64,000 nt of DNA from an uncultured archaeon (GTDB lineage: Archaea > Thermoproteota > Nitrososphaeria > JACIWG01), in NCBI GenBank assembly GCA_938034445.1, contig CALHLD010000029.1:1-64000 (forward strand). Reading direction: 5' to 3'. The notes under the pieces are model-generated. The model saw nothing but the letters and a program-made list of their open reading frames with translations, ran no database searches and was not told the DNA's origin. Positions 5,200 through 56,635 of the stretch are shown here, piece by piece. The position numbers and the translations under genes are program-made. The number at the start of each line of letters is the position of its first letter. Positions within the stretch are counted from its first letter, which is position 1.

Positions 5200-6354
5200 A
5201 TGTCGAAGATCGTTGATATTATAGTATATCCTGTATATTCTGAGGCAACTTCTGCATTGTCAGGATATTTACCATTTCAGGAATCGCTTGAAAAAACTGT
5301 TAGACGTGGTTACTCTTCATGTTTTGTTAAGGTTGTTGCAGATGATGGCTTATATGGTTTTGGAGAATGCTGGGTTAGGGAAGTCCCTCAAGCTACGGCT
5401 GAAATTGTTAGAAGGCTTCTAAAAAATATTGTTGTAGGAAAAAGTCCTTTAGAAACTGAAGTATTGTGGGAGGAAATGTTTGCTTCCCTTAAAAATCGAG
5501 GTCATACTAGGGGATATTTTATAGAAGCTTTGGCTGGAATAGACATCGCACTATGGGATCTTAAGGGGAAGATTCTTCAACGTCCAGTATACGAGCTTCT
5601 TGGTGGAAGGTTTAGAGAAAGTTTGAAGGCTTATGCTTCATCAATTGTTTTTGGCAAGCCTGAGGAGATGGCTAAAAGGGCTAGGGAGTGGGTTGATGAG
5701 GGACATGATCAGATTAAGGTTAAGGTTGGTATGGGTGTTGAACGTGATATCGAGAATTTGAAGGCAATAAGAAAGGAGGTAGGAAAGGGTGTTGAAATTA
5801 TGGCTGATGCGAATTCAGCCTACAATTTAAGCAGTGCATTAAAACTTGCAAGATTTCTTGAGAGGATTGAAGTAAGATGGTTTGAAGAGCCTCTACCATC
5901 CTATGACTTGAAAGGTTACACTACTTTAAAGAGGAAGGTTGATGTTCCAATAGCTTGCGGTGAATCCCTTTTCACTGTATACGATTTTAAGGACTATATC
6001 GAAAATGGTGCTGTGGACATAATTCAGCCTGATGTTGCAAGGGCTGGAGGGATAACTGAGTGTTCAAAGATAGTTCATCTTGCAAGAACCTATAATATAC
6101 AATTTTCTCCACATATTGGTTTGTCTGGTGCAGGATGCAGGGCCGCAACATTACATCTTTCAGCATCAACCTCTCCAGAAACATTTCTAACATATGAGGT
6201 GTATGATATAAAGGAGAGTCCAAATCCGTTCTCAAACCCTATATGTGATGAGCCTGTTGAGATATTTTCTAAAGGATATGTTAGGGTTCCAGAAAGGATT
6301 GGTCTTGGGTTAGAAGTTAATGAAAGAAGGTTAGAACAATTTTTGTGCAAATAA
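5200..6354 (+). CDS. Mandelate racemase-subgroup enolase-superfamily enzyme, probable sugar-acid dehydratase
   Basis: A 384-residue member of the enolase superfamily. It should abstract the proton next to a carboxylate, most likely dehydrating an aldonic or uronic acid. All key residues of the mandelate racemase subgroup are visible: the Lys173-x-Lys175 base pair, metal ligands Asp203, Glu229 and Glu255, and the Asp278/His305 dyad. The capping domain covers about residues 1-125 and the barrel the rest. Archaeal gluconate/galactonate dehydratases of the branched Entner-Doudoroff pathway belong to this group and have this length, but no aldolase or KDG kinase is nearby, so the substrate is not fixed. 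A deacetylase-like gene follows within 45 bases. Confidence 0.88.
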   Translation: MSKIVDIIVYPVYSEATSALSGYLPFQESLEKTVRRGYSSCFVKVVADDGLYGFGECWVREVPQATAEIVRRLLKNIVVGKSPLETEVLWEEMFASLKNRGHTRGYFIEALAGIDIALWDLKGKILQRPVYELLGGRFRESLKAYASSIVFGKPEEMAKRAREWVDEGHDQIKVKVGMGVERDIENLKAIRKEVGKGVEIMADANSAYNLSSALKLARFLERIEVRWFEEPLPSYDLKGYTTLKRKVDVPIACGESLFTVYDFKDYIENGAVDIIQPDVARAGGITECSKIVHLARTYNIQFSPHIGLSGAGCRAATLHLSASTSPETFLTYEVYDIKESPNPFSNPICDEPVEIFSKGYVRVPERIGLGLEVNERRLEQFLCK

Positions 6355-6397: not shown

Positions 6398-7357
6398 ATG
6401 CCTCTTGTAGATTTAGCGTTAAAGGAGCTTAAAGAGTACAAACCCCCTCTAACAAGGAGAAGTGATTTCAAAAGATTTTGGGAAGAGAATGTGAAACTTG
6501 CTGAAGAGCAGCCACTAAATTTTGTTGAAAAGAAAATAGAATATTTTACAAACAGGATTGAAGTTTATAAGATAGTCTTTGAAGGATATATTGATAGAAC
6601 TCCAATAACAGCATTTTTTGCGAAAGATTCAAAGAACAAGGAACCATCTCCAACAATAGTATTCTTTCACGGATACGGTTCAAGTAAGGGTGTCATTACA
6701 GACTATCTTGGCTGGATAATGCTCGGTTTCTCAGTTTTAGCTGTCGATGTTAGAGGCCAAGCTGGTGAGGCACCAGATTATGCAAGATATCCTTTCGGAA
6801 ACATTACGGGTAACATGACAAAGGGTATACAAGACAAAAGCACATACTATTATAGGTACGTTTTTATGGACTGTTATAGGGCAATAAAATACGTTCTAGA
6901 AAGAAGTGATGTTGACAAAGATAGGATTGGCGTTTCTGGAATGAGTCAAGGTGGAGGTTTATCCACAGCAGCTGCAGCCTTACATCCAAAAGTTTCTATT
7001 GCAATGCCAAGTGTACCATACCTATGCCATTTCGATAGGGCCATATATGTTGCGGAAGCAGGACCATATCTTGAAATATTAAACTATCTTAGAATAAGGC
7101 CTGAAGAAGAGGAAAGGATCATGGAGACTCTCTCGTACTTTGATGGAATGAATTTTGCGCCAGAAATCAATAAGCCAACAATATTTTCTGTAGGATTAAT
7201 AGACACCGTTTGTCCGCCTTCAACAATATTTGCTGCATACAATCATTTAGCTTCTAAGGAAAAGGCTATAGAAGTATATCATGGAATGGGCCATGAGGAG
7301 ATAGGTGTGCATGTTGAAAAGAAAATGAAATGGGCTACCAGATACCTTCAAATGTAG
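6398..7357 (+). CDS. Acetyl xylan esterase / cephalosporin C deacetylase family hydrolase
   Basis: A 319-residue alpha/beta hydrolase of the AXE1 family, which removes acetyl groups from xylo-oligosaccharides and other small acetylated compounds. The catalytic triad is visible: Ser183 in GMSQGG, Asp269 in GLIDTVCPP and His299 in GMGHEE. 'VFFHGYGSSKG' provides the oxyanion-hole region. No signal peptide is seen, so it acts inside the cell on imported acetylated sugars. It sits next to the sugar-acid dehydratase, which supports a role in breakdown of plant-derived or extracellular polysaccharide, although no glycoside hydrolase is in the window. Confidence 0.9.
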   Translation: MPLVDLALKELKEYKPPLTRRSDFKRFWEENVKLAEEQPLNFVEKKIEYFTNRIEVYKIVFEGYIDRTPITAFFAKDSKNKEPSPTIVFFHGYGSSKGVITDYLGWIMLGFSVLAVDVRGQAGEAPDYARYPFGNITGNMTKGIQDKSTYYYRYVFMDCYRAIKYVLERSDVDKDRIGVSGMSQGGGLSTAAAALHPKVSIAMPSVPYLCHFDRAIYVAEAGPYLEILNYLRIRPEEEERIMETLSYFDGMNFAPEINKPTIFSVGLIDTVCPPSTIFAAYNHLASKEKAIEVYHGMGHEEIGVHVEKKMKWATRYLQM

Positions 7358-7419
7358 GCGAACATAACCTTTTTAAACAACATTAACTAATAAATAGCGT
7401 GAAATTTTTTTGAAGAAAA

Positions 7420-9102
7420 GTGAAAAAGGTTTTACTAATAACTTTCCTCTCAATAATACCACTAATAATAGTACAGCTTATATTAGGCTATAGTATGCTT
7501 TTACACTTTGGGACAGTAGAAAAGATATATTTTGCTGAACACCTTAAAGAAATAAAGAATTGTGTTGCAGAGAAGATTAGAGAATTGGATGTGGTTGTAA
7601 AAGATTGGGCGTACTCTGATGAAAGCTATGATTTTATGAAAACAAAAAGTAGTGCTTATATTGAAAATAAGTTGGTCTCTGATACTTTTGAAAATTTAAA
7701 GGTAAACCTTATCATTTTCATAAATAATAGTGGAGAAGTCTTTTGGGGTGCCAAATATAATTTAACAACAAAAGAGATGACGCCATTGCCTGAAAGCCTA
7801 ATTTCCAAACTAAAAGCTAATTCAACAATTTTTGAAGGTTGTTTAGAGAAAAATGGTTTAAGTGGAATCATTATTTTGGAGAAGCCTACATTATTTTCTA
7901 TACACCCAATTCTGACAAGTGTGGGGAAAGGGTCATCAATGGGGTTTTTGGTGATGGGAAGACATCTTGACTCTAGTCAATTGGATCACATTAGATCTGC
8001 TTTAGGGAAAAATTTTTCTGTTTACAGTCTTGGAATTGAAATTGAAAAGGTTGAAGGTGAACCTTTATATGAAAACATTTATGTTAAACCGCATAATGAA
8101 AATATTATTGGATATGTTGTTTTTAAGGATGTTTATGGCAAAGATGCTCTGGCCTTTGAGCTTATAGAGTTTAGGTGGATTTATAGGGAGGGTATTATTC
8201 ATGTCTTTTACTATAGCTTATCAACTATATTATGTGTAATTTTAATTGGTATAGGAGCATTTTTGTTGTTTAAGTATGGTATTTTAAAGGATATTGAGCG
8301 TGTTGATGAAGAGTTAGAGATGATTGGTGAAAGTGGAAATATTTCTGCAAGATTAAATGTGAGGGGTGATGACGAAATAGCTAACATGTGCAAGATTATT
8401 AACGGCATGCTTGATAAGCTTGAAAAGGCTCAGATCAAACTCCAAGAAGAACGTGTTTCTGTCATTGGGGAGACTGCAAAAATTGTTGCACATGACCTTA
8501 GGAATCCTCTTCAATCGATAGTTAATAACATATATTTGATAGAGGAAAAGATTAGGTCTTCAAAAACAGTTCAACCAGATGTCCTTGAAAAATTGGATTC
8601 TATAAAGCTCCAAATAAAGTATATGGATAAAATTATTTCAGACCTTTACTATTATGGAAGCAACCTTAAGGTAATTAAGAAGGATATTAGTTTATGCAAA
8701 TTTATAAGGGACACAGTTTCTTTCACACCCATACCCCAAAACATAAGGACTGAAATACGTTGTGAGGAAGGATTAAAAGTAGTCTCTGATCCAATGATTT
8801 TGAGGCGTGTTCTTACGAACATCGTAATAAACGCTGTACAAGCTATGCCTGATGGGGGGCAATTGGTTGTCGAGGGGAAGATGGAGGGTGGAAATGTAAT
8901 TTTAACTGTCACAGATACTGGTAAAGGTATTCCTAAAGAATTACAGGACAAAATCTTTGAACCACTTTTTACGACAAGGTCTAAGGGCATGGGTTTGGGT
9001 CTTGCTGTGTGTAAAAGGCTTGTAGAGTCATTGGGTGGGGAAATAACTTTTCATAGCATAGAGGGTGCTGGTACAACATTCACTATAACTCTTCCATTGT
9101 AA
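7420..9102 (+). CDS. Membrane sensor histidine kinase with CHASE4-like extracellular domain
   Basis: A 560-residue sensor kinase. An N-terminal membrane segment (about 4-28) is followed by an extracellular CHASE4-like domain (about 30-255, with the early W-x-Y-x-D segment 'DWAYSDESYDF'), a second membrane segment (about 258-282), a HAMP linker, a HisKA domain with phosphoacceptor His358 in AHDLRNP, and a GHKL ATPase domain with 'NAVQAMPDGG', 'DTGKGIP' and 'GMGLGLAV'. The start is GTG; a stop three codons upstream excludes earlier starts. No response regulator lies next to it, so its partner and signal are unknown. Archaeal two-component kinases are mostly acquired from bacteria, and orphan ones are common. 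Confidence 0.92.
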   Translation: MKKVLLITFLSIIPLIIVQLILGYSMLLHFGTVEKIYFAEHLKEIKNCVAEKIRELDVVVKDWAYSDESYDFMKTKSSAYIENKLVSDTFENLKVNLIIFINNSGEVFWGAKYNLTTKEMTPLPESLISKLKANSTIFEGCLEKNGLSGIIILEKPTLFSIHPILTSVGKGSSMGFLVMGRHLDSSQLDHIRSALGKNFSVYSLGIEIEKVEGEPLYENIYVKPHNENIIGYVVFKDVYGKDALAFELIEFRWIYREGIIHVFYYSLSTILCVILIGIGAFLLFKYGILKDIERVDEELEMIGESGNISARLNVRGDDEIANMCKIINGMLDKLEKAQIKLQEERVSVIGETAKIVAHDLRNPLQSIVNNIYLIEEKIRSSKTVQPDVLEKLDSIKLQIKYMDKIISDLYYYGSNLKVIKKDISLCKFIRDTVSFTPIPQNIRTEIRCEEGLKVVSDPMILRRVLTNIVINAVQAMPDGGQLVVEGKMEGGNVILTVTDTGKGIPKELQDKIFEPLFTTRSKGMGLGLAVCKRLVESLGGEITFHSIEGAGTTFTITLPL

Positions 9103-17263: not shown

Positions 17264-18814
17264 ATGCTTTCACTTGTATACTCTAATCGCTTGATAATAT
17301 TATCTTTGGATATTGGGACTAGTGGATGCAAGGGCTATATGATTAGTTCGGACGGAAAGATTCTTTCTTCAGCGAAGGTTGGTTATAAAACTTACTTTGG
17401 CCCAGGTAATGTTGTTGAACAGAATCCGATCGACTGGGTTAATGCTTCCATAAAATGTCTTAAGGTCCTGTGTAGGAATAGTGATTTGAAAAAGGATGTT
17501 GCCGGTCTTTGTGTTGATGCGACTGTCGGTACTCTTGTTCCAATAGAAAGGTGGGGTGTCGCATCTGTTGATAGGGTTCCAATGTACTCTGACATGAGAG
17601 CTTTGGATGAAACTGAGTTTGTTAGAGAAAGGTTTGGCGAATCATTCTTGTATGAGAAAACAGGTAATCCTTTGACTCCTGTTCCGACATTATTAAAGAT
17701 GATTTGGATTAAAAAAAACATGAATAAAGTTTATGAGAGGACAAGAAAGTTTATCTTTCACAAGGATTTTGTTGTAGAAAACCTTATTGATGAAGGTAAG
17801 CCTTTTACAGACTATAGTGATGCTTCAGCAACAATGGCATACGACATTAGGAAAAAGGAGTGGATTAGTGAAGTTCTTGAAGAAACTGGTATTGCAGCTG
17901 ATAAGATGGTTGATGTTAAGGAGTCGACGGAAATAGTTGGAGATTTGAGAAGAGATATTGCAGAGGAGCTTGGGGTCAAACGTGTTCCAGTTACTGTAGG
18001 TGCAGGTGATTGTGCTGCAACACTATATGGTGCCGGTGCGATATCTGATGCTACTGGCGATATCTATATTGGCACTGCGCCTGAAGTTGATTTAACTTTA
18101 GAGGAGCTTAGGCTGGACCCTAAATTTAGGGTTCCAGTAAGGTGTCATGTGCTTAAAAATCAATGGTATTCTTCTGCCACAACATTATCTGGTTACTCTA
18201 TAGGATGGTTTTTTGATAGGTTTGGCAAGAATTTGGGGATAAAGCATGCCTTGAACCCTATCGATTTTTTAAATGAAAGGTGCTCAACCATTCCACCTGG
18301 TTCAGGTGGCCTAATCTATCTTCCTTATATTATTGGTGAAAGGTGTCCTCTAATGGATCCTTTGGCTAGGGCTGCCTTTATAGGCTTGGATGTAAATCAT
18401 GGTATCGAGCACATGTATAAGGCTGTTTTGGAAGGAATTGGGTTTGCACTTAGAGAAAATTATGAAGTTTACATTAAGGATATGGGTGTTGAAATAAGTT
18501 ACCTGGCTTTCTGTGGTGGAGGTGCACAGAATGCTATGTTGAGAAAGATTATTGTATCGAATCTTAAGGTTGATGGTCTGCTTCTAGAGAATCCTATTGA
18601 CTGTGCAGCTTTAGGCAATACTATGCTTTTTCTCAAATCTATAGGATTTTTTAAAGACTTTAGGCAAGCAAAGGATGTTATTGTAAAGTCTGTTGGCAAA
18701 GAAGTTCCTGACAAGGGTCTTGAAAAATTTTATGATGAAATTTATCAAGTTTATAGGGAATCATATTTTAGGCTCAAGGACGTTTTTTCTAAGCTTAAAA
18801 GGTATAGGCTTTAA
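17264..18814 (+). CDS. FGGY-family carbohydrate kinase, copy 1
   Basis: A 516-residue sugar kinase of the FGGY family (xylulokinase/gluconokinase/glycerol-kinase fold). The phosphate-1 loop is 'LDIGTSGCKGYM' near the N-terminus, and the C-terminal domain carries 'AFCGGGAQNAMLRKI', the FGGY signature region with ATP-binding glycines, plus 'YIIGERCPLMDP'. Divergent from aminotransferase copy 1 (74 bases between starts) and 50 bases upstream of aminotransferase copy 2, it might be a kinase for a sugar-like or hydroxy-acid compound processed with these enzymes. It is only distantly like the second FGGY kinase at 54484. Substrate unknown. Confidence 0.85.
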   Translation: MLSLVYSNRLIILSLDIGTSGCKGYMISSDGKILSSAKVGYKTYFGPGNVVEQNPIDWVNASIKCLKVLCRNSDLKKDVAGLCVDATVGTLVPIERWGVASVDRVPMYSDMRALDETEFVRERFGESFLYEKTGNPLTPVPTLLKMIWIKKNMNKVYERTRKFIFHKDFVVENLIDEGKPFTDYSDASATMAYDIRKKEWISEVLEETGIAADKMVDVKESTEIVGDLRRDIAEELGVKRVPVTVGAGDCAATLYGAGAISDATGDIYIGTAPEVDLTLEELRLDPKFRVPVRCHVLKNQWYSSATTLSGYSIGWFFDRFGKNLGIKHALNPIDFLNERCSTIPPGSGGLIYLPYIIGERCPLMDPLARAAFIGLDVNHGIEHMYKAVLEGIGFALRENYEVYIKDMGVEISYLAFCGGGAQNAMLRKIIVSNLKVDGLLLENPIDCAALGNTMLFLKSIGFFKDFRQAKDVIVKSVGKEVPDKGLEKFYDEIYQVYRESYFRLKDVFSKLKRYRL

Positions 18815-32540: not shown

Positions 32541-32613
32541 TCGCAACCAAAATCATTTCTAACTCCAATTTTTTTATATAAGTTTAAATGTATTATGTAA
32601 TGCAAAGGGTTTG

Positions 32614-33696
32614 ATGGAGAGGAGGGAAGATTTTCTTTCTGGTAAGAGGATTAGGGCTGTTAAGCCAAAAACCTTTTCTAATATACTGGATATTATAGAA
32701 GGTTTCGACCTTTCTGGAGCATATAATGCTGGTAGACTTGCTGAAGCATGTATAGTTTATGAGAAGATGGTTAGGGCTGGTTCAACTATTACGGTAACAC
32801 TTGCTGGAGCCTTCACACCGACAGGCTTAGGAAGCTACATTATTAATGCAATAGAAAGGGGTCTTATTGACATGGTTATTTCAACTGGCGCAAACCTTTA
32901 TCATGACATGCATTTTGCTTTAAACCTTCCACTTTATCAAGGTTCTCCTAGTGTTGATGATGAAAAGCTTTTGAAGCATGGTATTGTTAGAATATACGAT
33001 ATCTTTATTCCTGATGAGACTCTTTTTGAAACAGATAAGGTTGTTCAAAAAATTGTTTATGAAATTAGCGAAAAAGTTAATACACCACTTTCAACTTCAG
33101 ACTTCCACTATCTTCTTGGAAGGTGGCTTCTTGAAAATGCTCCGAATCCTGAAGAATCGATTCTCGCTACAGCAGCAAAATATAATGTGCCCATCTACAC
33201 TCCTTCGCCAGGTGACTCGAGTATTGGAATGAATGTTGCAAAGGCAAAAATTGATGGGCAGGGTGTACTTATTGACCCTGACCTTGATGTTCTTGAGACT
33301 GCGGCAATAGTGTACTGTAGTGGAAGTAATGGTGTTATTGTTTTGGGTGGCGGTTCTCCTAAAAACTTTTACTTTCAAACACAGCCTATGCTTGATCAAA
33401 TACTTGGTATTGGTAGAGGCGGCCATGATTATGTTATACAACTTACTGTTGATGTTCCACAGTATGGTGGCTTATCTGGCGCTACCTTACAGGAGGCTGT
33501 ATCTTGGGGCAAGATTAGGCCACGGGAGGATGTGAATAAGGTTACCGTCTACATGGATATTACTGTTTCAGCACCATTACTGTTCTCTTATATGTTCTCC
33601 AAAAACTATGTGTGTTCGCACAAAAACATTTATTTGAAAAGAAAAGATTTTCTAGAAAACTTAAAAGAAGCCTGCGATCGTAAAAAAATAAGGTAA
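32614..33696 (+). CDS. dys: Deoxyhypusine synthase
   Basis: Transfers the aminobutyl group of spermidine to a lysine of translation factor aIF5A, the first step of hypusine formation. The 360 residues show the NAD-binding 'TLAGAFTPTGLG', 'ISTGANLYHDMHFAL', 'YTPSPGDSSIGMN', 'VLGGGSPKNF' and the catalytic lysine in 'SWGKIRP' (near residue 300), so this is an active-type family member rather than a lysine-less paralogue. ATG 32614 is preferred to the TTG one codon earlier. It begins 73 bases after the binding-protein gene, behind an AT-rich TTTTTATATAAG box, and is followed within 6 bases by an MFS gene. Confidence 0.94.
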   Translation: MERREDFLSGKRIRAVKPKTFSNILDIIEGFDLSGAYNAGRLAEACIVYEKMVRAGSTITVTLAGAFTPTGLGSYIINAIERGLIDMVISTGANLYHDMHFALNLPLYQGSPSVDDEKLLKHGIVRIYDIFIPDETLFETDKVVQKIVYEISEKVNTPLSTSDFHYLLGRWLLENAPNPEESILATAAKYNVPIYTPSPGDSSIGMNVAKAKIDGQGVLIDPDLDVLETAAIVYCSGSNGVIVLGGGSPKNFYFQTQPMLDQILGIGRGGHDYVIQLTVDVPQYGGLSGATLQEAVSWGKIRPREDVNKVTVYMDITVSAPLLFSYMFSKNYVCSHKNIYLKRKDFLENLKEACDRKKIR

Positions 33697-33702
33697 TTTG
33701 AT

Positions 33703-34887
33703 ATGGATGATAAGACTAAATCCATATATTTTATGATAACACTTATTGGAATAGTTAGTATGATGGGTGACATTGTCTATGAAGGTGGTAGAGGAATAAT
33801 ACCATCTTATCTCCAAATTTTAGGCGCTTCAGCCTTTATTGTAGGACTTGTTACTGGCCTTGGAGATTTTATAGGATATGCTATAAGGCTTGTTAGTGGA
33901 TATTTGTCTGACAGAATAGGAACATATTGGATGTTCATGTTCTTGGGGTATGGTCTTATTATTGCGATACCTCTTCTTTCTGTAACCAATTTCTGGTTTG
34001 CTGCAGCCTTTCTTGTTCTAATGGAAAGGCTTGGTAAGGCTATTAGGGCTCCAGCAAGGGATGCTATCGTATCTATTGTTAGTAGGGGTGTTGGTGTTGG
34101 TAAAGCTTTTGGCTTGCATGAGCTTCTTGACCAGGTTGGTGCGGTTTTAGGACCTTTATTTGTTTCCATAATATTGTACCTTACATTCAACAATTATTCA
34201 ATCACTTTTGCATCACTCTTTGTACCCTACACTATACTTGTTGCTACACTGTTTTATGTGTATTCTAAGATTAGAGTTAAAGTTTCTGAAGGGCAAAGTG
34301 TGGGGGATAAAATTTTGTCCAAACCCTTTTCTAAAGATTTTTACCTATACTCTTTAGCTGTTTTCGCTAACGTTCTAGGGCTTGTTCCAGCCTCACTTAT
34401 TCTATATAAGGCTTCAACCATTTTATCATCCTCCAATATGGAATGGGTTGTGCCACTGCTTTTTATGCTTATACAGTTGATTGATGCTCCCTCTGCCTTA
34501 TTTTCTGGAATCGTTTTTGACCGTGTTGGCACAAGAGTTTTGACAGTATCCTTTATTCTCTCTATATTCACATGCTTCTTCGCTTTCCAAGCGATAGACT
34601 TAACTTATCTTATTATATCATGTATTTTTTATGGTATTGTTTTGGGTATGCAAGAATCCGTTTATAGGGCTGCAGTATCATACTATGTTCCAAAGGAATC
34701 TCGTGGAACAGCATATGGTGTATTTAATACTGTTTATGGTGTAGGTTTTCTTTTAAGTGGTGCTGTCTTCGGCCTATTTTTGGACACTGGTGCTGGAATA
34801 TTATACATCGTCTCTTATACTATATTAATGCAGGCTTTAGCCCTCTCTTGTCTCATTAAAAGTTATGGTAGACAATTTAAGGAATGA
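33703..34887 (+). CDS. Major facilitator superfamily transporter
   Basis: A 394-residue membrane protein with about twelve hydrophobic segments. The loop between helices 2 and 3 reads 'GYLSDRIGTYWMF', the MFS signature G-x-x-x-D-R-x-G, repeated in weaker form in the second half as 'GIVFDRVGTRVL'. The region 'ERLGKAIRAPARDAIVS' is typical of a subgroup of MFS proteins with unknown substrates. It starts six bases after deoxyhypusine synthase and may be cotranscribed. Export or import substrate cannot be predicted. Confidence 0.85.
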   Translation: MDDKTKSIYFMITLIGIVSMMGDIVYEGGRGIIPSYLQILGASAFIVGLVTGLGDFIGYAIRLVSGYLSDRIGTYWMFMFLGYGLIIAIPLLSVTNFWFAAAFLVLMERLGKAIRAPARDAIVSIVSRGVGVGKAFGLHELLDQVGAVLGPLFVSIILYLTFNNYSITFASLFVPYTILVATLFYVYSKIRVKVSEGQSVGDKILSKPFSKDFYLYSLAVFANVLGLVPASLILYKASTILSSSNMEWVVPLLFMLIQLIDAPSALFSGIVFDRVGTRVLTVSFILSIFTCFFAFQAIDLTYLIISCIFYGIVLGMQESVYRAAVSYYVPKESRGTAYGVFNTVYGVGFLLSGAVFGLFLDTGAGILYIVSYTILMQALALSCLIKSYGRQFKE

Positions 34888-34889
34888 AT

Positions 34890-35900
34890 TCACTCTCTCC
34901 TCCCCAAGATTCTATACAATTTATCTTCAGCTTTAGACATTTTTGACTCTTCAAATATTTTCCATAGCCTATTGAATACTGGGTTTCCAAGATTTTGTTC
35001 CATAGCCCATTCTTTTGCAAAACTTCCATCATATATCTTATACAATGTTTTTCGAATGTTTTCTTTAAGTTCTGGGTTGTTGTACATTTTTAAAGCGTTT
35101 GTTAGCTGCCCATATTGGCTTGTTCTAGAATGATATTTTAGCTGTTTAAAGAATCCTAGGTCAGCCATCGCCTGAAAAACTTCACTCATTTCTCCTGAGG
35201 CATAAAGTTCTAGAAGCGCAGCTTCCGGTGAAACACCGAACTCTTCAGTTAATACTTCAAAGGATGCCACCATAGAAGCTATTAGGCTTGGTGCAAGAAA
35301 CTGTTCACTAAAAAGGTCTATAAGTGTCTCCTCTTCGAAACTCGATTCTACAGCAACCCCTCCAGGTAAGAGTGCTCCGATACCCTTTGCTATTGCTAGA
35401 GCGTAATCCCAAGCCTTACCTGAAATGTTCTGGTAAACTCCTAAAAGTACTGGAAAACCTCTTTTCTTAACCATCACAACATCAATTATACCTGCTCCAA
35501 TCATTCTAGGTGCTACAAGGATAATGTCTGAGTTAGCTGGAGGTCTTATATACCCGTATGTTATATTGTATCCGCTTGCAAAATTCATAATACAAAACTC
35601 TTTTTTCTCAACATTTGGCAAAATTTCTTTAACATAAACTTCTGGTGCAACCTCATCTGGTATAAGTATCATTAGAACATCCGCTAACTTTGAAGCTTCA
35701 CCAATGTCATAAACTTTGAAACCATCTGATACCGCCTGATCCCAGCTCTTGTCTCTTATGTTTCCAACTATAACATTTAATCCATTAAGTTCTTTCAAAA
35801 TTCTTGCCTGTGCTCTTCCTTGGTTACCATATCCTATTACTGAAATGGTCTTATCTTTTAACAAGGAGATGTCTCCATCCAAAAATATTTTCTTATTCAT
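34890..35900 (-). CDS. Ketol-acid reductoisomerase homologue lacking catalytic His and Lys
   Basis: A 336-residue protein with the fold of class I ketol-acid reductoisomerase (IlvC). The NAD(P)-binding GYGNQGRAQA (23-32) and the knotted C-terminal domain with metal ligands Glu191, Asp195 and Glu199 in 'EETLIDLFSEQ' are present. Yet the catalytic His of FAHGF is Ser109 (FASGY), the catalytic Lys of 'APKGPGH' is Arg132 ('APRMIGAG'), the GPGHxVR loop is absent, and the second metal-site Glu on the C-terminal helix appears lost. No other branched-chain biosynthesis gene is near. I therefore call a KARI-like oxidoreductase of unknown substrate, not a safe ilvC. It is convergent with the MFS gene. 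Confidence 0.8.
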   Translation of the reverse strand: MNKKIFLDGDISLLKDKTISVIGYGNQGRAQARILKELNGLNVIVGNIRDKSWDQAVSDGFKVYDIGEASKLADVLMILIPDEVAPEVYVKEILPNVEKKEFCIMNFASGYNITYGYIRPPANSDIILVAPRMIGAGIIDVVMVKKRGFPVLLGVYQNISGKAWDYALAIAKGIGALLPGGVAVESSFEEETLIDLFSEQFLAPSLIASMVASFEVLTEEFGVSPEAALLELYASGEMSEVFQAMADLGFFKQLKYHSRTSQYGQLTNALKMYNNPELKENIRKTLYKIYDGSFAKEWAMEQNLGNPVFNRLWKIFEESKMSKAEDKLYRILGRRE

Positions 35901-36019
35901 TTTTATCGTGAAACCTTATAATTTTTTAATATAAAAAACTTATTATAATATAGGATATGGGTGAAGTGTTAGGAGGCTGCGATATATTTTTTGGAGGGTC
36001 GATTGTAGAGCTGATTTGT

Positions 36020-36742
36020 ATGGAAAGGAAAAAGTTGATAGAGGTAATAAATGTGTCGAAGGTTTATAGGATTGGTGGTGGTAATGAGTTTTGGGCTCTT
36101 AGGAATGTAAGTTTAGATGTTTGTGAAAGAGAATTTTTGGCTATAATGGGCCCTTCTGGTCATGGCAAAACAACTTTAATGAATATAATAGGTTTACTTG
36201 ATAAACCTTCTTCTGGAAAGGTTCTTATCGATGGTGTTGACACGGCAAAATTAAATGATGACCAACTTTCCCAGCTTAGAAATAGGAAAATAGGATTCGT
36301 ATTCCAACAATATAATCTTATTAATAGAATGTCTGTCTTAGAGAATATTGAGGTCCCGCTTCTTTTAAGAGGCTTGCCTAGAAGTGAGCGTGTTAAGTTG
36401 ACTGTAAGAGCTTTGGAGATGGCTGGTGGCGAAAAGAGTTGGCTTTATAAGAAGCCTAACCAGCTTTCTGGAGGACAGCAGCAGCGTGTCGCAATAGCTA
36501 GGGCGATTGTAGGCGACCCTGAAATCATATTGGCTGACGAGCCTACAGGTAATCTCGACACTGCCTCCTCGAAGATTGTTATGCAAACCTTTTCAAAGCT
36601 AAATGTTCTCGGTAAGACAATAGTTATGGTTACACATAATCCTGAAGTAGCCTTGTGTTCGAAGAGGATTTTGTATATCAGGGATGGGCGGATTAGTGGA
36701 GAGGAGGTGCCTGATCCAACAAAATGTTCTTTTTTGAAATAA
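36020..36742 (+). CDS. ABC ATPase, MacB/LolD type
   Basis: A 240-residue ATPase of the MacB/LolD/FtsE family, with Walker [10 protein letters not shown] (a His replaces the usual Ser/Cys), '[15 protein letters not shown]', Walker B '[12 protein letters not shown]' and the switch His in 'VTHNPE'. These ATPases drive permeases by mechanotransmission rather than by moving substrate through the membrane. I start at the internal ATG because the family N-terminus begins here; the longer frame upstream to 35957 has no family resemblance. The giant surface protein gene and the MacB-like permease gene follow on the same strand. Confidence 0.9.
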
Positions 36743-36800
36743 TGTTAGGTCTAAAGTAATGTATATAGGTTATTCTGATGTACTGTTGGTGAGTGATGCT

Positions 36801-39800
36801 ATGAAGGTTAAGAAGGCTATTTCACTTGTCTTTATTTTATTGCTTTTGCAGAACATGTTATTAGGCGTATTTAACCTAAATTTTGTTGTTGAAGCTCAAG
36901 GGGGTTCACATTTTAAGTTTTTGGGGTCACAGTGGGGTTCTCTAGATAGTCCCCAAAAGGTTTATCCTGGAAGCTCTAATGTTAATCTCATAATATTTGT
37001 TAGAAACGATTTTGGATTAGATTTGGTTAGTGTTCATGTAACATTGTATCTTCCTTTTGGAATAGAAAGTTATGATGGTAAAGGCAACATTACCTCGATG
37101 GGGTTTGTGCGAGATGGCGATTCAATAAGATATAGCGTAAATTCCGGAGAAGTTTTTCAATCAAACTTTCTATTAAATATTTTGGATTATGCTGAAGCTA
37201 AAGACTATAATTGTACTGCTTCAATAGAATTTTCTTACATTAGTGGCTCAAACTATTATGTTGAAAGTGAAAATATTAGTGTATTGTTTACTGTAAACGA
37301 TTTCCCCACATTTAGTTTTGATCTTATTGAATCTTATTGGACAACATCTGCAGGCTATAGGGTTAATGGTTCAACTGGTGCAAGAAACCTTAACCTCAAC
37401 ATTGTGTTAAAAAATTTGGGTGAAGATTCAATAAACAGAATATATGCTGAACTGGATTCGGGAAACGTACTTTATCCTAGGACGTCTACTGCAACAATCA
37501 ATAATATCGGAAAAGGTGAAGTGTTCACTATAACATTTAATCAGATTTCAATACCGATCTCAGTGTTACCAGGAACTTACACTCTATCACTTAAACTAAA
37601 CTGCACTTTTGTAGGCTATGGTAATGCTGTAAATGTTCAATCATACACTCTTCCAGTCGATATTCGAGTTATGGAACAATCTTCACCAAATCTTAGGCTT
37701 GTGAAAGTCGGTTGGAGAAACTATGAGAAAGGTTATCCGGGTTCACGTGCTATAGTTTTAGATTTTACAGTACAAAATTTTGGTGAATATACATTAAGCG
37801 ACACCCTAATTGTAGTGAAACTCCCAAAAGGCTTTACTGACATTTATGGAAAGAATATTGTAAACTCGACATCTCAGGCTGCTTTCGGCTATGGCGAGTT
37901 CGCTTTATTTTCTATTGGCCCAATATATATTGCCTCAAACGTTAATCCTGGCGTATATTATGGTAATGCAACAATACAGTGTATTGGTTTAAGGGATGCT
38001 TCACAGCTTATTTTAAGCCAGAACATGTCAATACCATTAATAGTAAGTAGGTATGTATCAAACTTTGATGTCTCAAGTGTTGAATGGCTTTATAATGGTC
38101 AACCTGCTGTAGCATTACCTGGTGCACAGAATATTCAGCTATCCATAACTTTGGTGAATAGGGGTGAGGAAACTTTGGCTGGATTATCTGCTTCTCCTGA
38201 TGCTCCTCCAGGCTTTAAGTTGTTGGGTGAAAGCGTTTACGGTGGCACCGTTCCTTCAGCTTCATCCTTTACCATATCCTTTTACTTTAACATAAGCCAG
38301 AATGTTAGGCCAGGAAACTATATTATACCCATATCTTTAACATTTAATGTTAATCCTTCCTCATCTAACATTATAGCATCTTCGGGTGTTCTGGTTCCTG
38401 TTTGGGTTGAGGACCCAAAATTCTTTGACTCGAACCTTAAGATTGTTAGCGTGTTTTGGGGGACTGTAGGTAATCCTCTTGTAGTTTATCCTGGTTCAAA
38501 GTTTGTTCCATTAACTTTAGAAGTTCTAAATAATGGCATCTATGCTGTTCATGGTGTTCACTTAAAACTTTATACTCCAGAAGCTTTTGAAACCATTGTA
38601 GGCGAATCTGATCTTTCAGCAAACATTCCTCCTGGAACCTTTTCCACATCAACCTTCTATTTGAATATAAAGTTTGACGCTTCACCTAAAACATATAATC
38701 TTACTCTACAACAATATTATTTCATAAGCTTGTACGGTGCCCAGATTCTGAAAACAAGAAATCTTACTGTACAAGTTAATGTTTTCCCTCCAGCTGTTAA
38801 ACCACCTTATGTAAAAGTTATCTCAAGCGGGTGGGGTAATGGTTATCCAGTTTATCCGGGAACCGAAAATGCAACATTCAATGTAGTGGTCTCCAATCAG
38901 GCTCCATATCCTATATCGGGTGTACAGGCTACCATAAAATCTTTCACCATATTTAGTGAAAGTGGCTTTGAAGGCTTCAAAGCATATGTTTCTGGTCCAA
39001 TAGCATCTTGGCAGACGGCCACATTATCCTTTAAATTGAATGTAGACCCAAAGGCTTTTCCTGGAAACTATAACATGAGCTTAACAATAGAGTACACACT
39101 TTTATCTGGAGGCAATAATGTTAGAGTTAAAGAAGAACATTCCATAAATCTTAAGGTTAATGCATTAAATAGTCCAGAGCATGTTTATTCTGGGTGGATT
39201 AGGTTCAGCCCAGGTCCTGGAAACAAGGGCGCTCTACTACTACTTATCTTTAGAAACAATGAAATTCCTCTCATGAAGGGCACGTATGTTACAGTGTCCT
39301 TGCCTAAAGGATTCAAATCAACTGTCACTGGATCGGAAAAGGTTAATGTTACCCCTTCATCCTTTTCTTCAACAACTCAAATACAGGATATTATAAACCT
39401 TTTATCAGGTCAGGGGCTGGCTTTTGCCCAGACGTTTCCAACTCCCCAGGCTCAGGTTGGTGTTGGGGACTTTATCGCCGTTCCTGTTCAAGTTGATGTT
39501 GAACCTGATGCTGGTCTTGGTAAACATTATCTTGTGGCAGAATTCAGTTTCATAGACCAGTGGTCGAATGTTAGGAGGGCGAAAGTTGATGCTCAATTCA
39601 TGTTGATGGGTTCAACATACATGATTGAAATAATTGAGGGCAAGTCTAAGCTTGTTATAGGCTTAAGGTCTTCTGTCATAGAACTTTTTGTAAAAAATAA
39701 TGGTACTGCACCAATTAAGGATGTTTATGTTGCAATTGGAGGTGCTCCACAGGGCATTTCCGTATCATCTTCAATAAAATATGTTACCGAAATAGGTCCA

Positions 39801-40433
39801 AGAGAAGAAGTTAATCTCTCATGGTTTGCGTCTGTTAACCCTCAAACCCCTTACACAGGCTCTCTCCCAATACTTGTTGTCGTCAGCTTCGCTGACTCGC
39901 TTGGTAATAGAAGGACTTTTAATCAGACTGCAATAGTTTATGTCGAAGGTGTCGTCGAACTCAATTTAATGGATACTTCAGTTTCTCCTCAAGTAATATA
40001 TTCTGGTGAAACTTTAACAGTTTCAACTACAATATTGAATCTTGGAACCTATAAGGCAAGAAATGTTGAAGCAAACATTGTTGGAAGTTTCTTAGAAAAT
40101 GTGACTGGCAGCTACACCTTTGTAGGTGATGTTGATGTTGGGGCACAAGTTCCTGTAAGCTTGCAGGCTCGTGTAAAAGATTTTGTTGGTGAAAGGACAC
40201 TTTATCTGGTGATAAGATATAGGAACGTGTTCAATGAGCCTATAACTCAAGTTTATCCAGTAAATGTGACCATAAGTCCAAGGCCTACTGCAACAACCAC
40301 TACAGCTATTCCAATAATAGAATTTATAGACACGTACAGGGCAGTTTTTATCATATTGATTTTAGGTTTTCTTATCGCTAGTGGAATATTAATCTACAGA
40401 CTTTATCAGAGGGTGAAAAGGGCTGCGGTGTAA
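36801..40433 (+). CDS. Giant secreted Ig-repeat surface protein with C-terminal anchor
   Basis: A protein of about 1210 residues with an N-terminal signal peptide (basic start, hydrophobic core to about residue 24, cleavage near VVEAQGG) and a single C-terminal membrane helix ('VFIILILGFLIASGILIYRLY') with a basic tail inside. Between them I count nine tandem repeats of roughly 110-140 residues, each starting with a pattern like 'V-x-W-(x)n-Y-P-G-S-x-x-V-x-L-x-x-x-V-x-N', as in NEW3/CARDB/COG1361-type Ig-like domains. A Thr-rich hinge precedes the anchor. Start ATG 36801 has a GGTGA box 8 nt upstream. It lies between an ABC ATPase and a MacB-like permease gene (8-base gap to the permease), so it is probably the outer part of that machine. 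Function unknown. Confidence 0.85.
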   Translation: MKVKKAISLVFILLLLQNMLLGVFNLNFVVEAQGGSHFKFLGSQWGSLDSPQKVYPGSSNVNLIIFVRNDFGLDLVSVHVTLYLPFGIESYDGKGNITSMGFVRDGDSIRYSVNSGEVFQSNFLLNILDYAEAKDYNCTASIEFSYISGSNYYVESENISVLFTVNDFPTFSFDLIESYWTTSAGYRVNGSTGARNLNLNIVLKNLGEDSINRIYAELDSGNVLYPRTSTATINNIGKGEVFTITFNQISIPISVLPGTYTLSLKLNCTFVGYGNAVNVQSYTLPVDIRVMEQSSPNLRLVKVGWRNYEKGYPGSRAIVLDFTVQNFGEYTLSDTLIVVKLPKGFTDIYGKNIVNSTSQAAFGYGEFALFSIGPIYIASNVNPGVYYGNATIQCIGLRDASQLILSQNMSIPLIVSRYVSNFDVSSVEWLYNGQPAVALPGAQNIQLSITLVNRGEETLAGLSASPDAPPGFKLLGESVYGGTVPSASSFTISFYFNISQNVRPGNYIIPISLTFNVNPSSSNIIASSGVLVPVWVEDPKFFDSNLKIVSVFWGTVGNPLVVYPGSKFVPLTLEVLNNGIYAVHGVHLKLYTPEAFETIVGESDLSANIPPGTFSTSTFYLNIKFDASPKTYNLTLQQYYFISLYGAQILKTRNLTVQVNVFPPAVKPPYVKVISSGWGNGYPVYPGTENATFNVVVSNQAPYPISGVQATIKSFTIFSESGFEGFKAYVSGPIASWQTATLSFKLNVDPKAFPGNYNMSLTIEYTLLSGGNNVRVKEEHSINLKVNALNSPEHVYSGWIRFSPGPGNKGALLLLIFRNNEIPLMKGTYVTVSLPKGFKSTVTGSEKVNVTPSSFSSTTQIQDIINLLSGQGLAFAQTFPTPQAQVGVGDFIAVPVQVDVEPDAGLGKHYLVAEFSFIDQWSNVRRAKVDAQFMLMGSTYMIEIIEGKSKLVIGLRSSVIELFVKNNGTAPIKDVYVAIGGAPQGISVSSSIKYVTEIGPREEVNLSWFASVNPQTPYTGSLPILVVVSFADSLGNRRTFNQTAIVYVEGVVELNLMDTSVSPQVIYSGETLTVSTTILNLGTYKARNVEANIVGSFLENVTGSYTFVGDVDVGAQVPVSLQARVKDFVGERTLYLVIRYRNVFNEPITQVYPVNVTISPRPTATTTTAIPIIEFIDTYRAVFIILILGFLIASGILIYRLYQRVKRAAV

Positions 40434-54483: not shown

Positions 54484-56016
54484 CTATTTAAAAAATTCTA
54501 TTTTTGAAAGTTCAATGAAATCCTCTTTAAGATGTTCATAGATTCTCTTATATAATTTGAACATATTAGTATACCTTTTATGGTTTTCAGCATCCGGTAT
54601 AAGCTCCTCATCAATTTTAACCATCCTTTTAATCTCCTCTACACTTTTGTAGACTTTTACGCCTAATCCAGCTATTAGTGCATCCCCAAATGTTTCGGTT
54701 GCAAGCATTCTTGTAACCTCAACCTTTTTTCCTGTAATGTCTGTAATGATCTTTCTCCAAAGTCTACTTTTTGCTCCTCCCCCTCCAACTCTAATCTTTG
54801 GTATAGAAAATCCTGCTTCCTCGAATACCTCAATATTGTGTCTCAAACTGTATGCTACACCCTCCATTACAGCTCTCGCAATCTCTCCCCTTTTATGCAT
54901 TGCAGTGAAACCGAATAGTACTCCTCTAGCGTATGGGTCCCATATGGGGCTTTTTTCTCCAGAAAGGTATGGTAAAAATATTATTCCTCTTGATCCTGCC
55001 GGAACCTTTTCCGCCTCCTCATCTATCATCTGGTACGCTGACTTTCCTAAAATTTTTGCCTTTTCAGTGGTAAATGTTGCAAGTTCATCCCTAAACCATT
55101 TCATTGAAAGGCCCCCTCCCTGCATTAGCGCCATCGCCAGCCACCTGTCTTCGATTGCATGATGTATGTTGATGAACCTTTTATCAAATTTTGGTTGGTT
55201 CATACAGCAGCAGAGTCTTCCAAGTGTTCCTAATGTATAGAATGCTTCACCTTCGTCCAGTATTGCTGAGCCGACTGCAGCTCCTACTGTGTCCATACAG
55301 CCTGCTACTACTTGTGTTCCCTTTGCGAGTCCTGTTAACTTTGAAGCTTCCTCACTTACTTCTCCTACAATTTCCTTTGAAATATATGCGTCCGGCAGCT
55401 TTTCTATTGGAATACCAAGCATTTTGCAGAGCTCTTCTGACCACCCTTTTTCTTTTCCTATTTTATATAGTAGTGTGGTTGAGCATCTTGATAGGTCTAT
55501 TGTATATTTTCCAGTAAGCTTCATTGTTACGAAGCCTGTTGGAACCATGAACTTGTACGTTTTTTCGAAGACCTTTGGCATGTTCTCTTTTATCCATAAT
55601 ATTGTTGGTGCAAGAAATGTTCCTGAAGCAATCCTATTTCCCGTTGTCTCAAAAACCTTTTTTTCTCCAACTATTTCTCTAATCTTTTCCGCATACCTTA
55701 TGCTCCTGTTATCTAGCTGCATTATAGCATTTATTATAGCTTTACCTTCACTGTCTACTGCAACACAAGCGTTCGTTCCACTAACGCATACTCCTAAAAT
55801 TTCTTTTGGATTCACTTTAGATGTCTTCAGTACCGCTTTAACTGTATCCTGTAATGCTTTCCACCACCCGTTTTCTGGATCCTCTTCAGCGTATCCAACG
55901 TTTGGGCTTATTATTGGATACTCTTCTTGTGCTACCGCTACAGAATTTCCTTCGAGGTCAAATAGTTCACTTTTTGTGCTGCTTGTTCCAACATCTATTC
56001 CAAGTAGGTATGGCAT
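54484..56016 (-). CDS. xylB: FGGY-family ketose kinase (xylulokinase-like), copy 2
   Basis: A 510-residue sugar kinase with 'LGIDVGTSSTKSELFDLEG' as the phosphate loop, the Asp-containing 'GCMDTVGAAVG' region, 'FLPYLSGEKSPIWDP' and the ATP-site 'VGGGGAKSRLWRKIITDITG'. It is closest in pattern to xylulokinases. I start at the ATG 7 bases after the aldolase stop; the longer frame begins with TTG inside the aldolase gene. It completes an operon of dehydrogenase, class II aldolase and kinase, which would oxidise a polyol, phosphorylate the ketose and split it. The exact sugar (ribulose, xylulose or a deoxy sugar) is open. Confidence 0.9.
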   Translation of the reverse strand: MPYLLGIDVGTSSTKSELFDLEGNSVAVAQEEYPIISPNVGYAEEDPENGWWKALQDTVKAVLKTSKVNPKEILGVCVSGTNACVAVDSEGKAIINAIMQLDNRSIRYAEKIREIVGEKKVFETTGNRIASGTFLAPTILWIKENMPKVFEKTYKFMVPTGFVTMKLTGKYTIDLSRCSTTLLYKIGKEKGWSEELCKMLGIPIEKLPDAYISKEIVGEVSEEASKLTGLAKGTQVVAGCMDTVGAAVGSAILDEGEAFYTLGTLGRLCCCMNQPKFDKRFINIHHAIEDRWLAMALMQGGGLSMKWFRDELATFTTEKAKILGKSAYQMIDEEAEKVPAGSRGIIFLPYLSGEKSPIWDPYARGVLFGFTAMHKRGEIARAVMEGVAYSLRHNIEVFEEAGFSIPKIRVGGGGAKSRLWRKIITDITGKKVEVTRMLATETFGDALIAGLGVKVYKSVEEIKRMVKIDEELIPDAENHKRYTNMFKLYKRIYEHLKEDFIELSKIEFFK

Positions 56017-56023
56017 TTTGGAT

Positions 56024-56635
56024 TCAGTAGGGGATTGGTAATGGTTTTCCAATCTGCATTGAATATATTGCTATCTGTGCAGTAGCTTCGAGTAGGTCTG
56101 CGTAATTGTATGCTTCCTCTAAATCTTTTCCCACTGCGACTGCTCCGTGGCTCTGTAGGACTGCAACTTTAACGCTTTTATCCTTGAAAGCTTCTTTTGT
56201 CTTTTCAGCCAGCTCTATCGAGCCTGGGGGACCGTATCCTACAACTGGACATTTTCCTAGAATCTTTAAACCTTGAACTGTGACCAGGGGGATCTCCTTT
56301 CCAACAACTGCAAAGGATGTAGCAGCTATAGAGTGTGTGTGAAATACTGCGTTAACATCGTCTCTAACCTTATATATTCCAAGGTGCATGTTTATTTCCT
56401 TTGAAGGTTTCCCCTTTCCCTCCAGAACATTTCCATCTAAGTCTATGATAATGATGTCACTTCTTTTCATGTTCCTAAAAGAAGCTCCAGTTCTTTTTAT
56501 TATAACCTTATTTTCACCTAAAACTCTTGCACTTATGTTTCCACCGGAGGCAGAGATCAGTCCCCTTCTATATGCTTCCTGAGATATTTGGATACATTCT
56601 TCTATTAGCTCATCTAAGTTTGTGCTCATAACCAA
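56024..56635 (-). CDS. Class II aldolase/epimerase family (fuculose-phosphate aldolase-like)
   Basis: A 203-residue zinc enzyme of the class II aldolase/adducin family (fuculose-1-phosphate, rhamnulose-1-phosphate or ribulose-phosphate type). Zinc ligands are seen as His and His in 'FHTHSIAA' and a third in 'LQSHGAVAVG'; the acid/base Glu lies in 'KPSKEINMH'. The N-terminal 'GGNISARVL' phosphate loop and 'RTGASFRN' are intact. It would cleave a ketose 1-phosphate to dihydroxyacetone phosphate and an aldehyde. It sits between a polyol-type dehydrogenase and a ketose kinase on the same strand. Confidence 0.9.
   Translation of the reverse strand: MVMSTNLDELIEECIQISQEAYRRGLISASGGNISARVLGENKVIIKRTGASFRNMKRSDIIIIDLDGNVLEGKGKPSKEINMHLGIYKVRDDVNAVFHTHSIAATSFAVVGKEIPLVTVQGLKILGKCPVVGYGPPGSIELAEKTKEAFKDKSVKVAVLQSHGAVAVGKDLEEAYNYADLLEATAQIAIYSMQIGKPLPIPY

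Follow-up and report, generated by a model that had tools for sequence, protein, structure and literature searches.

A class of ketol-acid reductoisomerase-like proteins in archaea and bacteria that appears decoupled from branched-chain amino acid synthesis

The protein encoded at positions 34890 to 35900 of the window (the whole 64,000-nucleotide stretch of DNA analyzed here, from an uncultured archaeon of the Nitrososphaeria) resembles ketol-acid reductoisomerase (KARI), the product of ilvC. Judging from sequence, it belongs to a distinct KARI-like class, referred to below as the lookalikes, whose characteristic residues hardly vary within a broad clade of archaea and bacteria. By gene neighborhood and genome content, this class is decoupled from branched-chain synthesis. 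What is new is this class-level picture of a broad KARI-like clade rather than the single gene. The one solved clade member known to us, Sso-KARI, is filed as an ordinary KARI, and the excerpts of the searched literature collection that deal with KARI homologs of sugar-acid catabolism and with ilvC paralogs (including PMC5041015) contain no description of the lookalike class.

The gene starts with ATG and encodes 336 amino acids with zero internal stops. Its product has the KARI fold by domain content, with both KARI_N (Pfam, 5.7e-51; 172.8 bits against a cut-off of 20.6) and KARI_C (2e-28; 100 bits against 29.1) above their cut-offs. Against the ilvC model TIGR00465 it scores 220.8, just below the curated cut-off of 226.15, and against NF004017 it scores 237.9, well below the cut-off of 336. 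Three relatives (L077, L107, and L108) score above the TIGR00465 cut-off, which thus fails to split the lookalike and canonical classes. The gene and the sites discussed below are as follows.

34890..35900, minus strand: KARI-like gene of the FASGY/APRMIG class (open reading frame and Pfam)
35814..35834, minus strand: Rossmann dinucleotide motif GYGNQGR, residues 23-29, invariant in 8/8 aligned rows
35760..35762, minus strand: Asn47 in the cofactor-binding loop VGN (alignment)
35574..35576, minus strand: Ser109 (FASGY), at the canonical catalytic-His position (alignment)
35505..35507, minus strand: Arg132 (APRM), at the canonical catalytic-Lys position (alignment)
35304..35330, minus strand: first metal-site helix, E191/D195/E199 kept (alignment)
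35190..35210, minus strand: second metal-site segment from E231 to E237, with a 2-residue insert (alignment)
35124..35132, minus strand: H257-S258-R259 (HSRTSQYG), a new His next to the conserved Ser (alignment)

We take positions His109, Lys132, and Ser258 to be catalytic in KARI. The window protein lacks the catalytic His and Lys, having S109 in FASGYN and R132 in VAPRMIGAGI, as against FSHGFN and VAPKSPGKSM in the canonical ilvC of the same genome. Further along, it has EETLIDLFSE (E191, D195, and E199), LLELYASGE (E231 and E237), and YHSRTSQYG (H257 and S258), the last two as against YFEVCNE and SDTAKYG in the canonical protein. Passages of PMC8615647 give the canonical KARI metal ligands as Asp191, Glu195, Glu227, and Glu231. 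In the window protein D195, E199, and E231 are in register with the canonical ligands, and E237 is so only across the 2-residue insert; PDB titles name Mg2+ in Sso-KARI entries that carry the same insert. The open reading frame and the alignments bear out the first-pass annotation in its description of Ser109 in FASGY, Arg132 in APRMIGAGI, and the retained Glu191, Asp195, and Glu199. The displacement that it saw in a C-terminal metal-site Glu is real and is due to the insert (E-x5-E in place of E-x3-E). It had no mention of His257, gained directly before Ser258. In sum, the window protein shares with canonical class I IlvC (EC 1.1.1.86) the two KARI domains, the Rossmann site, the D195/E199/E231 register, and the active-site Ser, and differs from it by the absence of the catalytic His and Lys, the insert of two residues, the extra His257, scores below the TIGR00465 and NF004017 cut-offs, and a location away from ilvB, ilvN, and leuA.

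S109, R132, H257, and both Glu residues are invariant in 8/8 of the nearest homologs aligned, and the dN/dS values of the window gene against two members of the same genus are 0.059 and 0.066 (a third comparison, against G004, is saturated at silent sites). This site is therefore not a product of chance or a sequencing artifact.

Three sources supplied homologs: the window's genome together with 60 relatives (61 genomes), 398 genomes of the phylum, and a scan of named genome contigs. The resulting alignment has 163 rows, repeat fetches and near-copies included: 125 lookalike rows and 38 canonical ones, the latter mostly archaeal with three bacterial. A row was assigned to the lookalikes if it had Arg132 or His257, so that the counts for these two columns, unlike the others, hold partly by definition: Arg132 is found in 124/125 lookalike rows, as against Lys in 38/38 canonical rows, and His257 in 124/125 as against 0/38. 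Met133 is likewise present in 124/125 lookalike and 0/38 canonical rows. The two Glu residues of the second metal segment are spaced as E-x5-E (7 residues) in 125/125 lookalike rows and as E-x3-E (5 residues) in 38/38 canonical rows, where the segment reads YFExxxE in place of the window's LLELYASGE. Residue 47 is Asn or Ser in 120/125 lookalike rows and Leu, Val, or Ala in all 38 canonical rows. Ser258 is found in 125/125 lookalike rows, and so are the metal-site residues E191, E199, and E237, with D195 and E231 in 124/125 each. The exceptions are row L075, with Lys132 and Asn231, row L088, with Gly257, and row L111, with Asn195 and Ala133. The window protein has the whole Sso-KARI-type set: R132, M133, H257, S258, T260, S261, the E-x5-E spacing, and Asn or Ser at position 47.

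A pseudogene or dead copy is disfavored by the intact frame, the nearly invariant site, and the dN/dS of about 0.06. The idea of a catalytically dead KARI paralog kept as a structural or regulatory partner would fit the change of both textbook catalytic residues, but it is hard to reconcile with metal-site residues that are nearly fixed across the class (124-125/125 rows), with the same low dN/dS, with the presence of the lookalike as the sole KARI homolog in some genomes, and with the binding of Mg2+, NAD(P)H, and the ligand CPD by Sso-KARI; we consider it very improbable.

All 80 loci among the matches listed from the scan of named contigs belong to the lookalike class; the scan used patterns from the lookalike alignment, so that it samples lookalikes and gives no frequency, and many of its records are metagenome bins, with some isolates. 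Among the matches listed, archaeal lookalikes come from Nitrososphaeria, Bathyarchaeota, Thermoprotei, Halobacteriales, and Asgard groups, and bacterial ones from, e.g., Deltaproteobacteria, Acidimicrobiia, Oscillospiraceae, Halanaerobium, and Planctomycetes. Unusually long KARI-like frames are found in L084 (match at 6670-7638, 508 amino acids), L109 (6863-7813, 504 amino acids), and L048 (3146-4123, 862 amino acids), and these are possible fusions or extensions.

In a tree of 110 of the 163 rows, built by a quick method, a single branch with an SH-aLRT support of 100 divides the canonical rows from all others. Near-copies, partial rows, and the single 862-residue row are left out of this tree, the trait columns are kept in, no class II, eukaryotic, or BurG rows are included, and five rows are long-branched. 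The phylogeny with true KARIs that had been proposed thus places the window protein outside the canonical IlvC rows, in a separate clade. The change from His to Ser, which the first-pass annotation described, does not define this clade. Position 109 is His in 38/38 canonical rows, and the 125 lookalike rows have Ser (104), His (20), or Thr (1) there, a pattern that takes at least 6 changes on the 110-row tree. The loss of His is therefore not the key step; the key steps are the Lys-to-Arg replacement, the two-residue insert, and the gain of His257.

The genome of the window encodes a second, canonical KARI (FSHGF, APKSPGK) on contig C2, where its gene immediately follows ilvB and ilvN and precedes leuA, with ilvD on the same contig. 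A search for a second canonical ilvC together with ilvB and ilvD, suggested in the earlier annotation, thus finds all of them, and with canonical ilvC, ilvB, ilvN, and ilvD in the genome, branched-chain synthesis in this cell does not have to rely on the lookalike. Among 26 genomes examined for pathway content, which were chosen for holding a lookalike, 20 have both a canonical KARI (cut by a contig end in one case) and an acetolactate synthase above the TIGR00118 cut-off; G137 is among the genomes that carry canonical ilvC. In the other 6, neither a canonical KARI nor an acetolactate synthase above that cut-off is found, and 5 of these also have no match to ilvD, which is present in G014. Completeness is 99% for three of the six (G298, G308, and G318), two of which are single-contig assemblies, and 80-86% for G014, G277, and G356. 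G318 and G356 have a match to the acetolactate synthase family of thiamine-diphosphate enzymes that stays below the cut-off (379 and 400 against 538 bits). With no ilvD match and no acetolactate synthase above the cut-off, G298, G308, and G318 lack the known pathway, which leaves no known route by which their lookalike could take part in branched-chain synthesis.

Ketopantoate reduction is a known side activity of IlvC, and a ketopantoate reductase for coenzyme A synthesis would need the reductase half of the chemistry alone. In keeping with such a role, ApbA_C (PanE) is without a match in 18 of the 23 genomes tested, among them that of the window. However, 14 of the 23, again with the window's, have no match to PanB, so that no ketopantoate is made there by the PanB route, and three lookalike-only Acidilobaceae-like genomes hold PanB and PanE side by side. 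The combination of PanB present and PanE absent is not seen in the window genome, where neither is matched; this role is disfavored and appears most unlikely.

Gene neighborhoods show a similar separation. At least one of ilvB, ilvN, and leuA lies within 1.5 kb of the KARI gene in 12/26 canonical loci and in only 1/101 lookalike loci. The 101 lookalike loci include at least three second fetches (L153, L154, and L158), full 1.5-kb flanks are available for 81/101 lookalike and 25/26 canonical loci, and the query sequences were those of L003, which is counted among the 12 canonical positives. A single archaeal family (f3) contributes 13 of the 14 canonical negatives, and the remaining one is a Rhodococcus plasmid gene. 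The only positive lookalike locus is L062 (the same as L157:4096-9393, genome G384), which has His109 and sits beside a canonical ilvB-ilvN-ilvC cluster. Around four plasmid-borne relatives annotated as ilvC, one of which has uninformative neighbors, no branched-chain biosynthesis gene is listed.

The window gene itself is solitary and has none of ilvB, ilvN, and leuA beside it. The genes nearest to it, and others in the window that might bear on a substrate, are as follows.

32611-33696: deoxyhypusine-synthase-family gene (PF01916), listed with a TTG start, ahead of the MFS gene
33703-34887: MFS transporter gene, convergent with the KARI-like gene
35957-36742: ABC ATPase gene, divergent from the KARI-like gene
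5200-6354: MR/MLE gene, far from the KARI-like gene
6398-7357: acetyl-xylan-esterase-family gene, far from the KARI-like gene
17264-18814 and 54484-56052: two FGGY kinases, far from the KARI-like gene

A BMP-type ABC transporter also lies ahead of the MFS gene. Among the loci examined, this neighbor order (MFS, deoxyhypusine-synthase-like, ABC) is found only in the window's own family, f1. With the gene solitary and the order confined to one family, the window gives no substrate. The PF01916 and MFS genes are also adjacent in L033, L034, and L035. On the other side, between the ABC ATPase gene and a MacB/FtsX permease gene, positions 36759-40433 encode a 1224-residue protein with a NEW3/NPCBM-associated match, and genes of matching size and order are found in L034 and in L035/L158.

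An AF2 model of the window protein (pLDDT 96.9) has as its best structure match Sso-KARI with Mg2+ (Z 40.9; 1.6 Å over 329 residues; 54% identity), followed by canonical KARIs and BurG. Sso-KARI (“putative ketol-acid reductoisomerase 2” of Saccharolobus solfataricus; PDB 6jcv, 6jcw, 6jcz, 6jd1, 6jd2, and others) is the closest solved relative, with 54-55% identity over the full length, and likewise has FASGY, APRM, the E-x5-E insert, HHSTTSQYG, and the VGN cofactor loop. The PDB titles name entries with Mg2+ and entries with NADPH or NADH plus CPD, which is presumably cyclopropane-1,1-dicarboxylate. A JACS study of 2019 reportedly found Sso-KARI to be active on acetolactate, to be bispecific for NADH and NADPH owing to the cofactor-loop Asn, and to be inactive at pH values above 7.8; the enzyme also presumably shows no induced fit. 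The passages of citing papers covered here do not give the activity of Sso-KARI. The first-pass annotation held that every working KARI has the His and Lys. This is doubtful, as structures of an enzyme with FASGY and APRM contain Mg2+, NAD(P)H, and CPD; if the reported acetolactate activity is right, that statement is wrong. The loss of His and Lys does not serve as proof of lost KARI chemistry.

The published record can be read in favor of a true second KARI isozyme for valine and isoleucine, in which Arg132, His257, and the shifted Glu replace His and Lys and which works with another cofactor (bispecific for NADH and NADPH) or under another condition. Passages of PMC8615647 count Sso-KARI among the characterized KARIs and stress the conservation of the active site, and those of PMC9359912 call cyclopropane-1,1-dicarboxylate a KARI inhibitor and place it between the two Mg2+ ions of BurG. 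Excerpts of the review PMC9580929, which names S. acidocaldarius, report temperature-dependent activity that matches temperature-resolved KARI structures from the research group of the 2019 study, and entries 6kou, 6kpa, and 6kpe, which have the Sso sequence, may come from that work. The published passages thus treat Sso-KARI as a KARI, it shares its motifs with the window protein, it was solved with the KARI inhibitor, and the Asn to which bispecificity is ascribed is kept as N47. Against this stand the 6 of 26 genomes without a canonical KARI and an acetolactate synthase above the cut-off, five of them also without an ilvD match, and the single locus of 101 that adjoins ilvB, ilvN, or leuA. 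We regard an isozyme as unlikely, though it is the most serious rival. Retained acetolactate activity in vitro, as reported for Sso-KARI, is compatible with a role outside branched-chain synthesis.

Genome G429 (row L146) encodes a copy identical to Sso-KARI over 327 residues, and this copy clusters with the window protein in the 110-row tree. Its gene directly follows thiC, a neighborhood that differs from that of the window gene. Both KARI-like copies of G429 (L145:6763-9102 and L146:8145-10487) lie about 45 bp downstream of a 433-residue gene of one cluster, identified as thiC (PF01964) in L146, which may reflect a joint duplication of the two genes.

The neighborhoods of several relatives have a sugar-acid flavor. 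L077 is next to a galactonate dehydratase (above cut-off), an FAA hydrolase, and a PfkB kinase whose nearest models, IolC and KDG kinase, are below cut-off. In L045 (Wolframiiraptor), a glyoxylate reductase (above cut-off) is directly upstream, in a run that also has an Fe-ADH and an inositol-phosphatase-family gene. L108 has GntR-FCD and GntP neighbors; Haladaptatus and Halomarina relatives have MR/MLE dehydratases, SDRs, and a sugar ABC transporter nearby; a Sulfitobacter relative has a TRAP transporter, glycerate kinase, and aldehyde dehydrogenase; and L153 (Ignisphaera) has Gfo/Idh, Zn-ADH, creatininase-family, and xylose-isomerase-like genes. This link is weaker for the window's own subgroup, which is archaeal, has Ser109, and is represented in this list by L045 and L153; the clearest sugar-acid clusters (L161, L162, L077, and L108) are elsewhere in the tree, and L161 and L162 retain His109. 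Other neighbors vary by lineage (thiC, a PF04199 hydrolase, a Mur ligase, an Nramp-like transporter, or nothing recognizable). No recurrence across the class is seen for the thiC, PF04199, MBL-fold, MurT/ADP-ribosylglycohydrolase, DnaB, sulfatase, or CstA neighbors; the MBL-fold protein is found in L081, with a similar-looking neighbor without a Pfam match in L143, and MurT and ADP-ribosylglycohydrolase are found in L041. Because neighborhoods differ so widely between lineages, they do not show one shared pathway, and the class may hold several functions.

Two further arrangements are seen. In L155:7018-8717 and L086:1583-4623, from two archaeal lineages, a PF04199 cyclase/hydrolase directly follows the KARI-like gene, followed in L086 by an MFS transporter; this neighbor may hint at a lactone or amide as the upstream substrate. 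In L066, L087, L090, and L099, a glycyl-radical enzyme and its activase are near the KARI-like gene, as judged by cluster membership. Of the four loci, L090 alone is annotated; its enzyme scores below every listed cut-off, and a molybdopterin oxidoreductase follows. These four loci possibly represent an anaerobic catabolic cluster.

The reading that we favor, and consider somewhat better than even, is that the lookalike is a Mg2+- and NAD(P)-dependent 2-hydroxy- or 2-keto-acid oxidoreductase outside branched-chain metabolism, perhaps a KARI running in reverse. By analogy with KARI and BurG, the window protein would bind two Mg2+ ions and NAD(P)(H) and, with the substrate held on the two metal ions, would add a hydride to C2 of a 2-keto acid or remove one from C2 of a 2-hydroxy acid; hydride transfer at C2 is what the retention of the fold, the cofactor site, and the metal-site residues points to. 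A polyhydroxy acid might also undergo the KARI-type shift in the oxidative, catabolic sense. Within the cell of the window, the lookalike would work beside the canonical IlvC, not in its place. The proposal in the first-pass annotation of a neofunctionalized oxidoreductase is supported in part, by the separate clade and the canonical ilvC of the same genome, and loses its argument from the missing His and Lys.

Other KARI relatives provide points of comparison. According to passages of PMC9359912, BurG is related to KARI but catalyzes a new reaction, as a cyclopropanol synthase, and the genomes that encode it also have ilvC; it uses two Mg2+ ions and NAD+, and its proposed first step is oxidation of C2 of the hydroxy-acid substrate. 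On the strength of these passages, BurG is a precedent for neofunctionalization of a KARI. It matches the window model with Z 35.6-37.3 at 31-32% identity and is no closer to the window protein than canonical KARIs are. The promiscuous IlvC paralogs of Streptomyces and relatives (PMC4353338) are likewise KARI homologs whose annotation needs biochemical checking. The wider conjecture, which we put forward tentatively and think rather less likely than the general oxidoreductase role, is that the class comprises widespread, unrecognized catabolic “reverse KARIs,” i.e., Mg2+/NAD(P)+ enzymes that act as oxidoisomerases or dehydrogenases on sugar acids, branched or polyhydroxy, and in which Arg132 and His257 replace Lys and His. 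Apionate oxidoisomerase catalyzes a reverse-KARI-type reaction on a branched sugar acid and, by analogy, might be a lead as a model for the lookalike class. If this conjecture is true, that family would include Sso-KARI, which serves as a model in cryo-EM enzymology, and the bispecificity, pH 7.8 limit, and lack of induced fit attributed to Sso-KARI would be signs of a nonnative substrate.

KARI is a textbook metabolic marker and a target of herbicides and antibiotics, and ilvC calls serve to credit genomes with valine and isoleucine synthesis. Naming the lookalike ilvC is probably misleading. The earlier expectation that automatic annotation would make this error is supported by the four plasmid relatives, which are named ilvC and carry valine and isoleucine GO terms. 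A wrong credit does not arise for the cell of the window, which has ilvB, ilvN, canonical ilvC, and ilvD; it would apply to genomes such as G298, G308, and G318, which have the lookalike only. A class that is named ilvC in four records and is yet found without acetolactate synthase and dihydroxy-acid dehydratase leads to false credits, as exemplified by the Acidilobaceae-like genomes in this set. By the same token, the solved “KARI” of S. solfataricus may not be the branched-chain enzyme of its organism. The class as a whole represents a natural experiment on which residues are truly needed for KARI chemistry.
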